A DNA stretch of 64,000 bases from Salminus brasiliensis (Eukaryota > Chordata > Actinopteri > Characiformes > Bryconidae). The translations under genes and the position numbers were made by a program. The stretch is from assembly GCF_030463535.1 (NCBI RefSeq), contig NC_132879.1:42784970-42848969 (forward strand). Reading direction: 5' to 3'. Positions 6,002-32,100 of the stretch are shown in pieces. The notes under the pieces are model-generated. The model was not told the DNA's origin and did no database searches. It saw nothing but the letters and a program-made list of their open reading frames with translations. Position 1 is the stretch's first letter; every line of letters starts with the position of its first letter.

Positions 6002-6061
6002 TTTAACTAATTTAGTACATTTTTTAACTAATTTAGTACATTTTTTAACTAATTTAGTAAT
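6002..6061. repeat. Three tandem copies of a 21-bp unit
   Basis: The unit TTAACTAATTTAGTACATTTT repeats with a period of 21 (its C falls at 6007, 6028 and 6049). It sits about 110 bases upstream of the ints13 start codon, in the 5' intron. Confidence 0.85.
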
Positions 6062-6171
6062 ATTTTTTTTTAGCTGATATTCTTAGAAAATGCCTCTTTG
6101 TAGTTCCCTTCTGACCTTGATATGAACTGTGTTTAACTTTGTACAGGTAATCAGTCTTGAGCACCAGCAAG

Positions 6172-6962: not shown

Positions 6963-9900
6963 CATTGACATGGCAGTGGTGATATTTGGGCTCAAAATAA
7001 TTTTTCTTACCGTTCTGGGGCAACGTACATCCAAAAAAATGTTGTTGTTTTTTGTGCATTTAGATGTTATTTTCCCACAAGACTAACCTTCTAGCTAGCA
7101 CTATCTAGTATCCTGTTTTGTCGACACCCCATTAACAGAATGCATTCAGCCCACTTTAAGTTGCACCCATTGCTGTTGGCACCATGCCTAATGCCATGTG
7201 TTGACTAGAGAGGTAAACAACTGTAATTGGTTACAGTTAATGGCTGCACTGGCAGCTGTAGGACCTCCCAACCCTCGTGAGGACCCAGAATGCTGCAGCA
7301 TCTTACATGGCCTGGTGGCAGCAGTGGAGTCACTTTGCAAGATTACAGAGTACCAGCATGAGTCTCGGACCTCTCTTATGGACATGGCGGACAGGGTGGC
7401 CAACAGGGGGCGCATCATCTGTCTCACTAATGCGAAAAGGTAAATAAACCGCAGATCTTGTATGTTGTGTTTTTTTTAGATGATATGAATGCTTGTTGAG
7501 ATACTATATATCTGTCAAAATGGAAGTTGCTAAGTATTACATCATTTATTTTCTTTTACATTCTGTCTGGAAAGGTTTGTTTCAGTTTAGACAGTTTTTA
7601 TATTTTGTGGGATGAGTAAAATGTAAAACATCCCATATGGAAATTATAGGTTAAGAATTGTGTTGTGTTTGTAATTAAAGCAGTAATTCATTGGTTGTAT
7701 GGTCATGGGGCATGTTACTGTTAGTTTACTGTTAAAACTATGATGGTGAAGGTGTGTCAACAGTTTAGCTTCCTCCTCACGTTTCCCAGAAAATAGCAGT
7801 GTATTGTTAAATGAATATTTGTGTCTGTCTTCCTCAGTGACACCCATGTGCGGATGCTGGAGGATTGTGTGCTGGAAACTATTCAGGAACAGAACAAGCT
7901 TGCCGCTGGATCTGACAGGTGTGTTGTGGGTAAAATATGTCACATTGAACATTGAAGTTTATTCTAGCTGTGTTCCATTTCCATTAGTACTGCTACCTGC
8001 TGTTTATCTTTCAGTATTTATGTAATGCTAACTGGCAGTTACTGGTACTCGTTCAAGATTAGTAATTGTCAGTATTTGTTTTGTGCAGGCTTATGCCTAT
8101 TCAGCAGTGTGAGCTGGTCCTGGTCCACATATACCCACAAGGAGATGACACGCTAGTATCAGACCGGCCAAAGAAAGAGGTGAGGTTAACCAGTGCAGAT
8201 TCAACTTGTGTTAAGGCTTGGATCTGGATTTGGCCCTCTCAGTTTTGTGACTAGTCTTTAACTTAATGTGTGCAGTTCAAAGCTTAAACTCCATGACATT
8301 TAGATAAATGACTACAGGGACATCAGAACCCAGATAAGAAAGAAGAGTCATAGAAACATAGGAAGAACTTGAGGATTACTGAAAAGTTGGAATCACTAGA
8401 GATGAATCAGGAAGTTATTGTAACCACTGAATACTGAGAAACACAAATATAAGTGAAAATAGATATTGGCTGTGTATGTGGCAAAATACTGACACATCAC
8501 TGCTAACTACACCATTTGCACAGAAGTGTTGAGACACCTGCTCATTTATTGTTTCTTCTAAAATCAAGGCTGTTAAGAGTTGATCCTGCTTTTGTTTGAG
8601 TGACTGTCTCTACAGTCCACAAACATTTGCTCATGTGTGTTAGTATTTAATTGTCCTAGTGGTAGCTGTTAGCATTTTCCACTCAGTAAAAGGTATTTTA
8701 AGGATGGGACACTGCTGTTTTGAAATATTGGATTTCACCTTAAAAGATATAGGTCCCAAACAATCTTGATTAGTCTAAAGGACAGCGAACAGTAATTGTT
8801 GACTTGTTGCTAAATATAAACCAACTTTCCCTCCCTGCTAATCTTCAGTTTTTGTCTGTGTCAGATCTCATCCATGCTGAGCAGCGAGGTACACAGTGTG
8901 CGTGCTGGGAGACACCTGGCCTCCAAACTAAACGTGCTGGTGCAGCAGCACTTTGACCTGGCCTCCACCACCATCACCAACATTCCTATGAAGGTGAGAT
9001 CTTCCATGTTTCCCATTCTTAAGTAGTTAGTAGCAGGTCATTCATACCACAAAAAATGACTCGGTCTCCTCATTTTCTATTGTATTCTTGTCCTTTTTTG
9101 GTTCTCACTTTCTTCTTGAGAAATTCTTCACCTGTATCTGGCTTGTATTCCTTATTTTTCCTCCCTTATTTGACCCTGTTCACAAGTTTCCTCAGTGGTG
9201 AACTTTAAGTATTAGTTGAATGTGTTTTTGTTCATGCATGTGAGATGCATTACAATGCATATTTAAAACATGCATTAGAAGCATTTATTTATCACTGAGG
9301 ACAAAGAATGCATAACTCTTTAAATATGCAGGAAACAAATGGCATACTCATGCCATAATATTACAGCACATGGGAATGCTGTAATGACTGCAAGTCCAAA
9401 GGCTTGACCAGTGACATTTATTTTATAATGTCATATACACTATATGTCCAGATGTTGACATCCCTTCTAATATATATAATTTTATTGCTGAGAGAGATGC
9501 AGAGTTTCTGTTGAGATGTATTGCCAGTAGAATAGGACTCTCTGGAGCAGATAAATACAAACTTATTGGCACCCTGCTTTGTGCCAGGCATGGGCAGGAG
9601 GACTATAAAGCTCCCAGCATTGAGCTGTGGAGCAGTTGAGCTGTATTCTCTGGAATGATCATCCACAATCCTGACCTTTATAACACTATTTTTGATGAAT
9701 GCAATCAAATTCTCAAAGCAAAAATCTAGAAGAAAGCCATCCCTGGACAGTAAGGACAGTTATTCCAACAAAAGCAGGATGACCTTTTTATTTATTTTTT
9801 TAATTGCTGAATAATCTATAAATAAGCAGTTGTCCCAATACTTTTGTCCATATAGTGTATATCTGGCCTCGCCTGCCCTTCAGTGTGTCGTAGCTTTAAG

Positions 9901-12900
9901 CCTCCCTTGGACAAGACAAACAAGATACTGACCAAAATGTAAGATGCCAGAGTTCAGGAATCTCATAGTGTTTAAATATGAGACCGGATAACATTAAAGA
10001 GAACTTGAATATTTAAACATCCTGATACCCGACACATGTCCTGCTGATTTGATTTTCCACATTTTTTTGTATCCTTCGATCCCATCTGATGACTCACTGA
10101 ATTTACTGTCTGATCATGCTTTTGCCTTCATGTATATTTTTCTGGATTTTCACACGGCTGCTGTTTTCATGGTGTATTTTCTGTTTTGCTAGCCTACATT
10201 AAATGTCTGTGAGCAGGTCAGTACTCTAATGTTTCCAGAGATAATCTCAGACCCTCAGGATGTGTGCCTTCTTCTGTCATCCAGCTCACACTAATCTTAC
10301 ATCTGGATTAAAAAAAAAAAGGCACATTACTTTACATTACTTTAAACCATTATTTGTTTCAATGGCTTCTGTAACCTCATTAGCACTGGTGACTGCCATG
10401 TGTATTATGTCCGTGATGAGTTGAAAAACCACAGCCAAGAGTTAACGTCAATACCACTTTATTGTTATGGCGTTTTAATGTTTTAGGATGACAAGGATTT
10501 AAAAATAAATAAATAAATATATATATATTTACATTTTTTTAAACTAATATCAAAATGATATCCAATACTTAATACATTTATTTTTATTTAACCTTCATAC
10601 AGTTGACTGTAAGCATATATTATTACATTACAGACTATTTAAACCTAAAAGGATCAAACTCTAATACTGCTCTCATCTACTGGTTAATACACATGAGCAT
10701 GGGTGCTCACACACACAGCAAGCCTGTTGGAATCCAATCACAGAAAAGACATTTTGTTTACATTTGTGTTAAATATGGACAAGATTTGTCTCTGACCACA
10801 TCTGAATGTGGTTTGTGTGATTGGAATGTAGTCTTGTCACAATGCATTTTGAGGGTATTTATCCCAATCCAGTCTTTGTTTTAACCACGGTGTTAGAAGC
10901 ATCTTCTGGTGTTCTCAAGTCTCCATTAACAGACTTTATTCCCAGCTGGCAGCAGTAAAGACGTCTCAGCTAGTAAATAAGATCTGCAGTGTGTATATTT
11001 TACAGTGGAACATGAAAACAGAATATAACAGTTATTTCACACTTGACTGCAGTGTTTTAAAGGAGCTGGGAGCTGAATGGTCAGGGAGGATTCAGACTGG
11101 ATTATAAGATATTAAACGTGCTATAAAACAGACATTTTAAGAAAAATCTCTACTAAATGAAATAAATCAGTCCAGAATGTCTCATTATAGAAACTGCTAC
11201 TGCAGTAGGCATTAGTTCTCGGCCATTAGAGACTTTTCCCTAATGAGTTATTTTTTCATTTCTGTGTATTTTTTCTCGTTTTCCAAAATCGAATCCGATA
11301 CTAAATTATTCATGTAGCGTTTTCTACAACAAATGGTGTACAACAAGCAGCTTTACAGAGATCTGGGTACGAGCCCATTTTGAGTAAGTTTTATTCAAAA
11401 AATGTAATAATGAAAATAATACACATTCCAACACTTTTTTTTCAATATTGATGTTCAGCTCAGTGTGTCCCGATTTTCACTGTTTAACATTTTAGTTCCA
11501 GACATTTCTGGGGACAAATGTAGTTTAGCAGCTTCAGTCAGAAGAACCTGTAGAAGTTCTTTAGAGATTTAGTTCATTATGATGTTGAGTGTTTATACAA
11601 GCATTGAGAAAATGAATCTTTCTTACGATTAGTGTGATGCTGGATGAAAAAGAAAGCACTTCCTTACTGCCTACCTCAACCTTCCCCTGCCATAGGTGAT
11701 CTTTTTCCCTAGAGATGCTAGTGTCTTGCAGTGCTCTGGTTCTTTGTGCTGTGTGGAGTTGTAGTCTGTACCCTCCCTTTCTCTCTTGTTCTCTCTTTGA
11801 CTCAATCTCTTCGTCTACCTCCTGTCTTTACTAAGGGTCAAGTATGATCTGTCCCAATGGCAGCCAGCCTTCATAAACCACAAAGGTTTCACCCCTGTGG
11901 ATGTATGTGAAGCTAACATTGAACTGAATGATCAACCAACATTTGTGCTGTATGAACACACTTTCCTGGTGGATGGTTAGTTTGAGGAGTCACTATGGAT
12001 TTGGTCTCCTTTCTCCAGAGTGTGATGTGTGCTTCTCATAGTGTTTGCCTTTACCCTTTTCACTCCCTGTTCACAGTGAAACAGAAAGATGTAGAAAAGG
12101 TCATGAATAACCTCACCTTACGGAGGGCTGGTTTCCCAAGAACACCGTATCCTACACTACCAAGTGTGGTAAAAATGGCTGCGGCGGTTTTTCTGTTGTC
12201 TTTCTTTGATGCTTCCTACAGTATTTGTTCCACGTCGATGCTTTTGGGAAATTCAGCCCAGATCTGTGGATGATCCAGTTGCCCAGGCGCTGGTAGAATT
12301 GAATGTGGAAACCCAACTAAATTGTTTCTGTTTACATGTTCGTGTGCTCTCTGCCGAAATGAAGGAGGAACAGCATGCCAACACCTCTGCTAACTATGAT
12401 GTAGAGCTTTTGCATCATCGAGACGCTCACATGGAGTTCATCAAAAGTGGTATGTATCTTTTTCCAGGTAGCCATTGTGGAAGTGAGGTCAGTTACACTC
12501 ATCAGGCTGGCAATATTTTGGTTTTCAAAAAACAGAGAGCACACGGGCATCGGCTGTGGTTAGAATGTTGTGGCTGGGAGGCTTCGCTTTAAAGATCTCC
12601 AAAACATACAGCTATAACAATGTCATTTACCACGACTATTAAATAGCTGTAATAGCAAATATGCATATATATCGTAACAGTTGTTTTGTTTTTTTTTGCT
12701 ACCACAAATAACCATATGTGTATGTAATAATATATGGTAAACATGGTAAGCAGTATCAACATGGTTTCCCACTGCCTGTTATTTATTTGATATTTATATT
12801 TGATATTTTATTCACATATTAATATTCAGTAATTACACTGCAACACTGCAAACTGGTTGTATTAAGGAATGCTGGTTGCCATTGTTGGTTACATGCAGCT

Positions 12901-21584: not shown

Positions 21585-21875
21585 TCCCCTGGTTGCCCGA
21601 ACGGAGTCGCTCGCTGTCTTTAAACACAGACTGAAGACCCTCCTCTTCCGAGAATACTTGGGCGAATAGCAGAGTGGTCACCTTATTGACTTGTGTGTCT
21701 AGTAGTGTCTAAACTTAGAGGTATTTTTTAATTTTTAGACTTTTTAGACTATTTTTGAATTTTTAAACTAGCTGAGGTTATTCTTGGGTAAATAGCAATG
21801 TTTTGCAAATGTTTGTAAGTCGCTCTGGATAAGAGCGTCTGCTAAATGCCTTAAATATAAATGTAAATGCTATGG
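21585..21875 (+). mobile_element. LINE ORF2 C-terminus and 3' UTR
   Basis: An in-frame block LPLVARTESLAVFKHRLK followed by TLLFREYLGE and a stop (21589-21669) is the standard C-terminus of fish LINE endonuclease/reverse transcriptase proteins. The 3' end has the very common sequence AAGTCGCTCTGGATAAGAGC, then GTCTGCTAAATGCC, and a (TAAATA)n-like tail. It differs from the L2 tail just before it, so two LINE families are adjacent. Confidence 0.8.
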
Positions 21876-29192: not shown

Positions 29193-32100
29193 TCAGACAT
29201 AAATGCCTTCTGGGTTGAAGCTGGAGGTCAGCGGGCCCTGCAGAGCTCGGAAGGCGTTGGGGAGCGGATGGGCCGATCCCAGGCGCTTCAGAGAGTTGGT
29301 CTGCTCTGGCTCTGTAGGACAACACACAGCACAGAGGTTTTGTGTCATACAGATGTTTCTAGCAGGTATAAGCACTGGGTGATTTTCTCATTCAAAACCA
29401 TGAACATTTCTTGATGTGTTGTATTTATATCATTATATCATCACAACTCAACAATTAAAAGGGACTGTTTGATGTCTAGAAACACTGCATATCAGTCAAG
29501 TGACTGTCTTTAAAACCTCATGACCATCACTTTGGCTATGTTCACACAATAGGTAAAGTGGCCCAAATCTGACCTATAGCCAACATTCAGTTCACATTCC
29601 TAAACATACATGCATGAAAGAGCAACGCTTTACACAAAGCTTTTACCTTTGCCAGCATTGCGGCAGCTATCAAAAAGGTCCAGTGGCTGACAAAAGGGCA
29701 GCTGTAAAAATGCCACATTATTCGGCCACGGCCTCTTCTTCAGTTTGCGCCCTTGTTTTCTTGTTTTCTAACTTTTGTAACAATTTCTTTATAAATATCA
29801 TCAAACACGGAACGGCTGTTGCGATATGTGCCTTCCAATTTAGTTCAAACAGAGACATCACCCCAAATATTTATGAGGTCTGTTACCTCACTATCCTGCC
29901 ACTGAAGACCTCCCTCACTGCTGTCATATATTTTCCTTTCTCCTCACATCTCTTCCCCTTCTCTTTGGCACAAAAGTCGCATGAATTACGGTCTGGCTGT
30001 TCGGAGTCACACTTCCGCATGTCAGCTATGTATCAGATGTCAATACCACATATGAAAGTGTCCCAAATTGGAACTGTTAAAAAAAAGATCAGATGCGGGC
30101 CACTCTGACCTGCTGTGAATGTAGCTTTAGACACTACTTGTCCCTATTCTTCACAAGAAAAGATTTGTTGTCCTGGTTTACACTTAACTACACAGGTGCT
30201 GTGTGTGTGTATGTGGTCATATGCAAAAAAGCAGTAATAAACCCTGCCAACTTGTGGCCTGTGCTCGGAACCTCCTACTCTAAACGCTTGATGGTAGAGA
30301 CTGTTGACTCAAACTGCCAAACAGACGTGTCTGAACATGCCTCATCATGCACAATCCCATGATTGAAGTCTTCTGTAGATGAGATAAAACAATTCTTATC
30401 CCTACTCTTCTCCCTTTTAAAGAAAGCCTCAAGAACAGTATATTAAACATCAAAGAAATATAAAACAGTTTGGATTAAAGCATGTGCTAGATGAACATAA
30501 GTGCTGTGCCATATGCATGTGCATAGAAAAAAAGGCTCTGAGCTAAGAATCTCCAATGAGCTTTCTGATTTTTACACTTTTACATTTTGTGTACTACTGA
30601 TTATTTTCACAGCAGTATTAACCACACCAAAACAGGTGCTGAAGCCCTACTGAGCGCAGCCTAATGTGCGAGTGTATCAGTGTTTGTGTGTGTACCTCTG
30701 CTAGTCTCCTCTTCAGCAGGTTCTGCTGGTAGCACGGTGACTTTGGTGCCAGTCTGCTGGATGAACTGTTGAAGGTTCACCTGTCTCAGCTCCTTGGTTA
30801 ACTGCTCCAGCTCCTGCTCTTTTTCCTGTGTAAAGCAAACCAATCTATTAATCAGGCAATAATTCACTTGCAATCCACAATATGAATCTTATTACACTAT
30901 TTTTAAAATGGAGAACCCTATTCTGGTACGAGATTTACCGCACTTTAAGATCATTCTGTCTTTGGTTGAATGGACTTGGATTACATGCCAACCGAACACT
31001 GTGGTGCTTTAGAGTGGAGCTGGCCACATTCATTTCCATTCCATTAATCTATCATCTCTGCCCAGGCCTGGTTTCTTACATAATTCACTCTCACGCCCAG
31101 ATACACACCCTTCTCAACACTCAACACACTGTTTCCCAACCTCTCCCTGGATATATTAGTCTCTTTCAGCAAATATGCTTAATGCTGCAGAGCTCTCAGT
31201 CTACGTAAAGGATATCTGGGAAATCTGGCAATAGTCCTATTAACATTCAAGCACTGAAGAATAGAAAGTGTGGTCTTTTCAGAAAAGAAATTTCACACTA
31301 TATGGAGAAACACATTTGGACACTTGCTCATTCACTGTTTTTTCCTAAATCAAGGGTATTAAAATACATATCTGCTTTTCTTGTAGTAACTGTCTCTACT
31401 GTCCAGAGAAGGCTGTCTATAACATATCTACTACTTCCCAACACTCATCATAAAAGTATTAAATGGTGTACTATCAATCCAGAAAAACTGCTCCACAGCT
31501 TAATACAATAACACCTTTAGCCCACGCCTGGTATTAGGCATGTTGCTAATACATTTTTATGCTCCAGAAAGTTCTATAGACTATTGATGTCAATCGTCAT
31601 TCTGTAGATGATTTTATTTGGCACTCTGGGTCTAAGCTTAATTTTGAATGGCAGAAATTAAGGTTTTTAAAAAAAAAATCGCCTCTATCACGTTCTGTGG
31701 TAAATAAATATGTTCTGAACTTATGTTTTGTTCTGTGTACATTTTTCTCCTGTGCATCACTAGATCCTCTCAATTCTGAGATCGCTTAGGAGTCTAAATA
31801 TGAATATTACTACATTTAAGTTAATACTACTGTGCACCAAACTGACATTATTAGACTGGTAGCCACACAAACCAACATGATCTGCCAGTGTGGCAGTCAA
31901 GTGGTATTAGCAAGTTCAATTTGAGTAGCAGTTGTTTACTACGCTAGTCTATCAATATGATTGACTTGACCAAACTGGTCAACTAGCTTTATCAAGTCTG
32001 ATAGGCCAGCTAAACTATTAAATTCAAATAAAAGAAAAGCTTAACCAGCTAAACCAGCTTGTGTACCGACACAGGGTGTGTTTTCTTCTGGATGAGTAGC

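Follow-up and report, generated by a model that had tools for sequence, protein, structure and literature searches.

A predicted small gene nested within an ints13 intron of Salminus brasiliensis

Introduction

Does an intron of ints13 in Salminus brasiliensis carry a second, small protein-coding gene of its own? The question arises in a window of 64,000 nucleotides (the whole stretch of DNA analysed, from contig NC_132879.1), in which the original prediction joined three segments into an unrecognised coding tail. Three origins were proposed for this tail: it could be where a nested gene ends, a piece relocated along with its introns, or the 3' exons of an intron-bearing transposon gene. For zebrafish, Table 1 of a report on vertebrate nested genes gives 767 such genes (PMC2151771), a total not divided by strand as far as the source states it.

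Results

The host intron

Based on tblastn with a human INTS13 query, the intron holding the feature was placed at 8994–12364 on the forward strand, between the ints13 exon ending in ...ITNIPMK (8993) and the exon resuming at 12365, whose acceptor, AG/GAG, was assigned by eye. A separate genome match of the ints13 middle part likewise starts at 12365, and with the human query the gene spans 6172 to at least 17715. The flanking exons match human INTS13, and ints13 reads through without the additional segments, as had been claimed. The feature described below (11637–12296) lies entirely within this single intron, and the gap between the end of its last exon and the next ints13 exon is 68 nt. When the intron was compared with the window and with 20 further stretches of 10 kb each, its repeat matches reached 11388, with none found in 11389–12364. 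The GC content is 0.35 in 10600–11600 versus 0.43–0.45 within the introns of the feature.

Further upstream in the same intron, 9433–9862 forms a short inverted-repeat element with 23-nt ends that are 83% complementary. Six more partial matches lie in the window and 6 of 20 control loci also match it, so that it has the look of a family of non-autonomous DNA transposons.

Three segments in one frame

Re-reading of the sequence bore out the AG/GT borders, the common frame, the closing stop and the junctions 11975/12077 and 12168/12222 of the original prediction. The segments 11836–11975, 12077–12168 and 12222–12293 share one frame on the forward strand and close with TAG at 12294–12296; they comprise 1 nt, 46 codons and 1 nt, then 2 nt and 30 codons, then 24 codons. 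Their join counts 101 residues, not the 102 proposed, because the first junction splits a codon and the second, of phase 0, splits none.

The first segment, coding exon 2 of the model developed here (11836–11975), begins with 1 nt completing a codon, encodes VKYDLSQW...HTFLVD and ends with 1 nt. Its acceptor, CTAAG/G at 11836, is the first AG past a pyrimidine tract (pyrimidine fraction 0.83), and its donor is G/GTTAGT after 11975. The predicted intron 2 (11976–12076, 101 nt, GT..CACAG) leads to the acceptor CACAG/T at 12077; it has a second open pairing, a donor after 11968 with an acceptor at 12019. Coding exon 3 (12077–12168) consists of 2 nt and KQKDVEKV...PTLPSV, ending in phase 0 at a poor donor, TGTG/GTAAAA, after 12168. 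The predicted intron 3 (12169–12221, GTAAAA..CTACAG), the second intron of the three-segment join, has only 53 nt, which is unusually short for a vertebrate, and is followed by the acceptor CTACAG/T at 12222 and coding exon 4 (12222–12296), with 24 residues and the TAG. The 53-nt intron and the GTAAAA donor are the weak features of the chain. For human introns, a 65-nt threshold and a limit of 66 nt for ultra-short introns have been reported (PMC4463651); the intron proposed here falls under both values, and its splicing is predicted.

A 139-codon open frame at 12173–12589 also starts inside the feature and crosses the ints13 exon 12365–12451 in the ints13 frame.

A candidate start exon

The region 8994–11790 was scanned for upstream exons with donors scoring at least 6 of 8. 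The sole phase-2 start exon was 11637–11695 (ATG..CAT AG/GTGATC; 19 residues and 2 nt), which was absent from the original prediction and whose phase 2 end is the phase required by the acceptor at 11836; the same scan returned four internal exon candidates, none of them convincing. The proposed intron 1 (11696–11835) is 140 nt in length and contains a long pyrimidine tract. Joined to the tail, the start exon gives 366 nt from ATG to TAG, i.e., 121 codons plus stop with zero internal stops, interrupted by introns of 140, 101 and 53 nt. The model thus has a start, a stop and splice signals, and the quality of its splice sites as a whole is moderate.

The control, 200 kb from 20 loci of this genome read on both strands, contains 230 acceptors whose pyrimidine tract is similar, and 14 of them have a comparable start exon by chance; the start exon alone is therefore modest support, and its standing is weaker than that of the tail exons. 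Since a matching start exon was found, the feature may be a whole small gene and not a tail.

Chance expectation

We counted as target-level any three-exon chain with donors of at least 6 and at least 5 of 8 and a pyrimidine fraction of at least 0.8. These thresholds were set after the target was known, and the chance figures therefore overstate the case somewhat. At this level, chains in the window ended at two distinct stops, which belong to this locus and lie on the forward strand; the reverse strand had none, and 0 of 40 simulated 64-kb windows (Markov-4) contained one. Lowering the pyrimidine fraction to at least 0.7 gave chains in 1 of 40 simulations, and looser donors in addition gave 6 of 40. 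Under the three settings, 200 kb of the same genome yielded 0, 0 and 4 stops, the last at three places, one of which reads by eye like a real SLC12-type transporter gene. At the loosest setting, the window held five three-exon stops, two at the feature and three at two other places (30546; 33574 and 33654). These three look like chance, and one of the two places is antisense to RASSF-type coding sequence.

Four-exon models that were complete and had 121 codons or more, with donors of at least 5 and a pyrimidine fraction of at least 0.8, were confined within the window to the feature, and neither the 40 simulations nor the 200-kb control contained any. When the pyrimidine fraction was set at 0.7 or more, such models appeared in 7 of 40 simulations, at two places in the 200-kb control and at two on the forward strand of the window (the feature and 29614–30546). 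The longest model for the stop of the feature then uses 11968/12019, not 11975/12077, and has 138 residues. With donors of at least 6 throughout, the target four-exon model itself fails.

Coding signals

GC at codon positions 1–3 of the 121-codon frame is 0.51/0.36/0.52, the same shape as in ints13 (0.53/0.43/0.60); the tail exons by themselves have 0.53, 0.34 and 0.50. The periodicity of the tail was equalled in 0.9% of 20000 draws of random open frames of matched lengths from control DNA. Amino-acid composition, scored by comparison with a vertebrate average, was equalled in 7% of null cases, which is marginal (0.07). Codon-usage log-odds, trained on only 1178 codons of the window, part of which are coiled-coil, were equalled for the three tail segments by 46/281, 158/782 and 145/1201 noncoding open pieces. 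For synonymous choice alone, the null was as good in 53/281, 408/782 and 106/1201 cases, and the exon at 12077–12168 is accordingly no better than the null (408/782). Among the 30-codon open frames of the ints13 intron, the feature ranks ninth and tenth, behind several higher-scoring frames that are mostly antisense, plus one at 9544. GC periodicity, composition and codon usage together favour coding without proving it.

Searches for relatives and copies

Searches of the fish's own genome covered 1.066 Gb in 103 contigs. The DNA search with the 461-bp feature, in which very common words are skipped by the tool, returned a single match, the feature itself. The protein search with the 101-residue join matched only its own three exons at E ≤ 10; it took the three tail exons one at a time and scored only the best candidates, so that a very diverged parent could escape it. 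The DNA and protein searches thus detected neither multiple copies nor, at E ≤ 10, a parent copy. Pfam gave no match above cut-off for the 101-residue join (one weak match, YqbF, at E 0.19), no family for the 121-residue join, and 0 families either for the join in the alternative frame or for three further open frames from the ints13 intron; no transposase or other mobile-element domain was found in either the 101- or the 121-residue join. Because the genome matches are the feature alone, it is unlikely, judging from sequence comparison, to be a repeat, to belong to a transposon or to have broken off recently from some other gene. The proposal of a fragment moved with its introns gained no support, since both own-genome searches find only the feature, and that of transposon 3' exons fared no better, given a single copy and no Pfam family at cut-off.

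No PDB chain matched at E ≤ 10, and small ciliary or sperm microtubule proteins, which had been considered as candidates, were dropped on this result. Pattern searches gave 13 matches in IMG/VR and 30 in prokaryote genomes, none of them confirmed. Our literature searches, on the peptide strings of the feature and on INTS13 with nested gene and intron, retrieved no paper. Rfam at the gathering threshold reported, for the whole window, nothing beyond a UnaL2 LINE 3' element at 21802–21855 (73.7 bits), and an RNA family as the identity of the feature was set aside.

A search of the genome with the 204-residue ints13 middle part gave six matches, five being ints13 exons of the window and one lying elsewhere at E 0.889. 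The latter was rejected as a second ints13 copy; there is therefore no second ints13 intron to compare. A duplicated ints13 exon was likewise rejected, as the best E against the ints13 exons compared was 2.3, which is not meaningful.

Discussion

A small nested gene as the preferred reading

On balance, we lean slightly towards a small same-strand gene of four exons, nested inside the ints13 intron and encoding a predicted protein of 121 residues of no recognised family. What is directly seen are the open frames, the splice-site dinucleotides, their phases, the codon-position bias and the failure of own-genome searches to detect a second copy. That such a gene is transcribed, spliced and translated, and where it starts and is polyadenylated, are inferred, and the feature remains a prediction, not a proven gene. 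Of the three origins first proposed, the nested-gene end has the most support, and with the start exon it may be a whole gene.

Transcription would begin at a start of its own inside the ints13 intron, and splicing at the three short introns would join the exons 11637–11695, 11836–11975, 12077–12168 and 12222–12296. A scan from the stop to 13700 for AATAAA and ATTAAA found no AATAAA and only one ATTAAA, at 12638–12643 on the forward strand, past the ints13 exon 12365–12451. Polyadenylation would perhaps use this signal, in which case the ints13 exon would sit in the 3' untranslated region of an independent mRNA, because the sole ATTAAA lies beyond it. The ints13 transcript, for its part, would discard the whole nested gene as intron. 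By eye, the predicted protein has no signal peptide and no membrane span, and on that ground our guess is that it is intracellular.

The arrangement resembles the vertebrate intronic nested genes described in PMC2151771, as far as they are presented there, in that a small gene lies wholly within a host intron, a common arrangement; it differs in being predicted from sequence and in having its last exon only 68 nt upstream of a host exon. In favour of the nested gene we count the single frame with target-level splice sites, the start exon in the right phase 140 nt upstream, the empty controls at strict thresholds, the codon-position GC, the higher GC of the feature's introns than of 10600–11600 and the end of the repeat matches at 11388. 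Against it we count the 53-nt intron, the weak donor, the weak codon usage, the marginal composition, the chance models obtained at loose thresholds, the alternative splicing to 138 residues, the position of the poly(A) signal and the lack of a homologue in the databases covered.

A more specific form of the nested gene is rather doubtful in our estimate. Here the product would be a lineage-restricted protein without relatives beyond this fish group, having arisen in the ints13 intron and being expressed together with the host gene or from it, i.e., a young four-exon gene with minimal introns within a gene of the auxiliary module of Integrator.

If the nested gene is real, it would be a small protein gene of a kind that gene finders can miss, being short, nested and on the host strand. 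Teleost genomes would gain a protein that fits no recognised family, and the transcripts of the gene could pass for ints13 isoforms.

Alternative explanations

The strongest competitor is chance, i.e., intronic DNA with splice-like borders and open frames and no translation, which we regard as somewhat unlikely. Weak codon-usage and composition signals, the 53-nt intron, the missing homologue and the ease with which loose thresholds yield models all speak for it, as does the fact that the earlier reader selected the best-looking case of the window. However, target-level sites produced nothing in 40 simulations or in 200 kb, the codon-position GC bias has a null fraction of 0.009, and a start exon is present in the matching phase. 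If chance is the explanation, the locus would be an instructive case of how convincing such chains appear.

Quite unlikely is a relic, the remaining end of a gene that was once here or was moved here, now unexpressed and with its frame not yet decayed. This would agree with the tail view of the original prediction and with a start exon weaker than the tail exons; nevertheless, the searches of the genome detect no second copy by DNA or protein, and the 121-codon join is free of stops.

We also considered that the segments serve as alternative exons of ints13, in one of two forms that are unlikely even when taken jointly. An alternative 3' end, very unlikely in itself, would join the exon ending at 8993 to an acceptor at 11843 on the forward strand (AAG/TAT, phase 0 and in the ints13 frame by frame arithmetic) and would produce an INTS13 cut short, in which 99 foreign residues follow and the C-terminus is lost. 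The phases of 8993 and 11843 agree, both being phase 0, and an internal promoter would be unnecessary; phase agreement has, however, a one-in-three chance, the pyrimidine fraction of 11843 is 0.61 versus 0.83 for 11836, the first AG after the tract, and ints13 spliced into 11836 hits an early stop after GQV. According to PMC9559116, the human INTS13 C-terminus binds the Integrator cleavage module, and C-terminal patient variants, one of them truncating, disrupt this binding. Splicing into 11843 would likewise leave an INTS13 form without this module-binding C-terminus, with the difference that the variants of that source are germline and lie in the far C-terminus, whereas the ints13 transcript through 11843 is hypothetical. 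An alternative ints13 start, the least probable of all, would use an internal promoter and the donor at 12164–12165 (forward strand; exon end 12163, the last segment being in the ints13 frame and open into the exon at 12365) to replace what INTS13 encodes before 8993 by a new N-terminus; a chain through 12163 was found mechanically, and in the 72 nt common to it and the last exon the codon score is higher for the ints13 frame (0.061 versus -0.048), but this start requires a weaker-looking donor, AAGTGTGG, must read through the ints13 acceptor at 12365, and scores -0.143 across the full 141 nt up to that exon.

Genomic surroundings

By eye, the gene order in the window is ndufa5 – ints13 – RASSF type – NAPE-PLD-like. 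The NDUFA5-like exons (~1630–2615) lie just upstream of ints13; FGFR1OP2 was considered as the upstream neighbour and rejected, its best match in the window being an unconvincing E 6.2. The RASSF-type gene is on the reverse strand, and the NAPE-PLD-like gene is found at 55.9–56.6 kb. We infer that these neighbour genes resemble those of bony fish. In addition, three tandem 21-nt units occupy 6002–6068, just ahead of the ints13 start codon.
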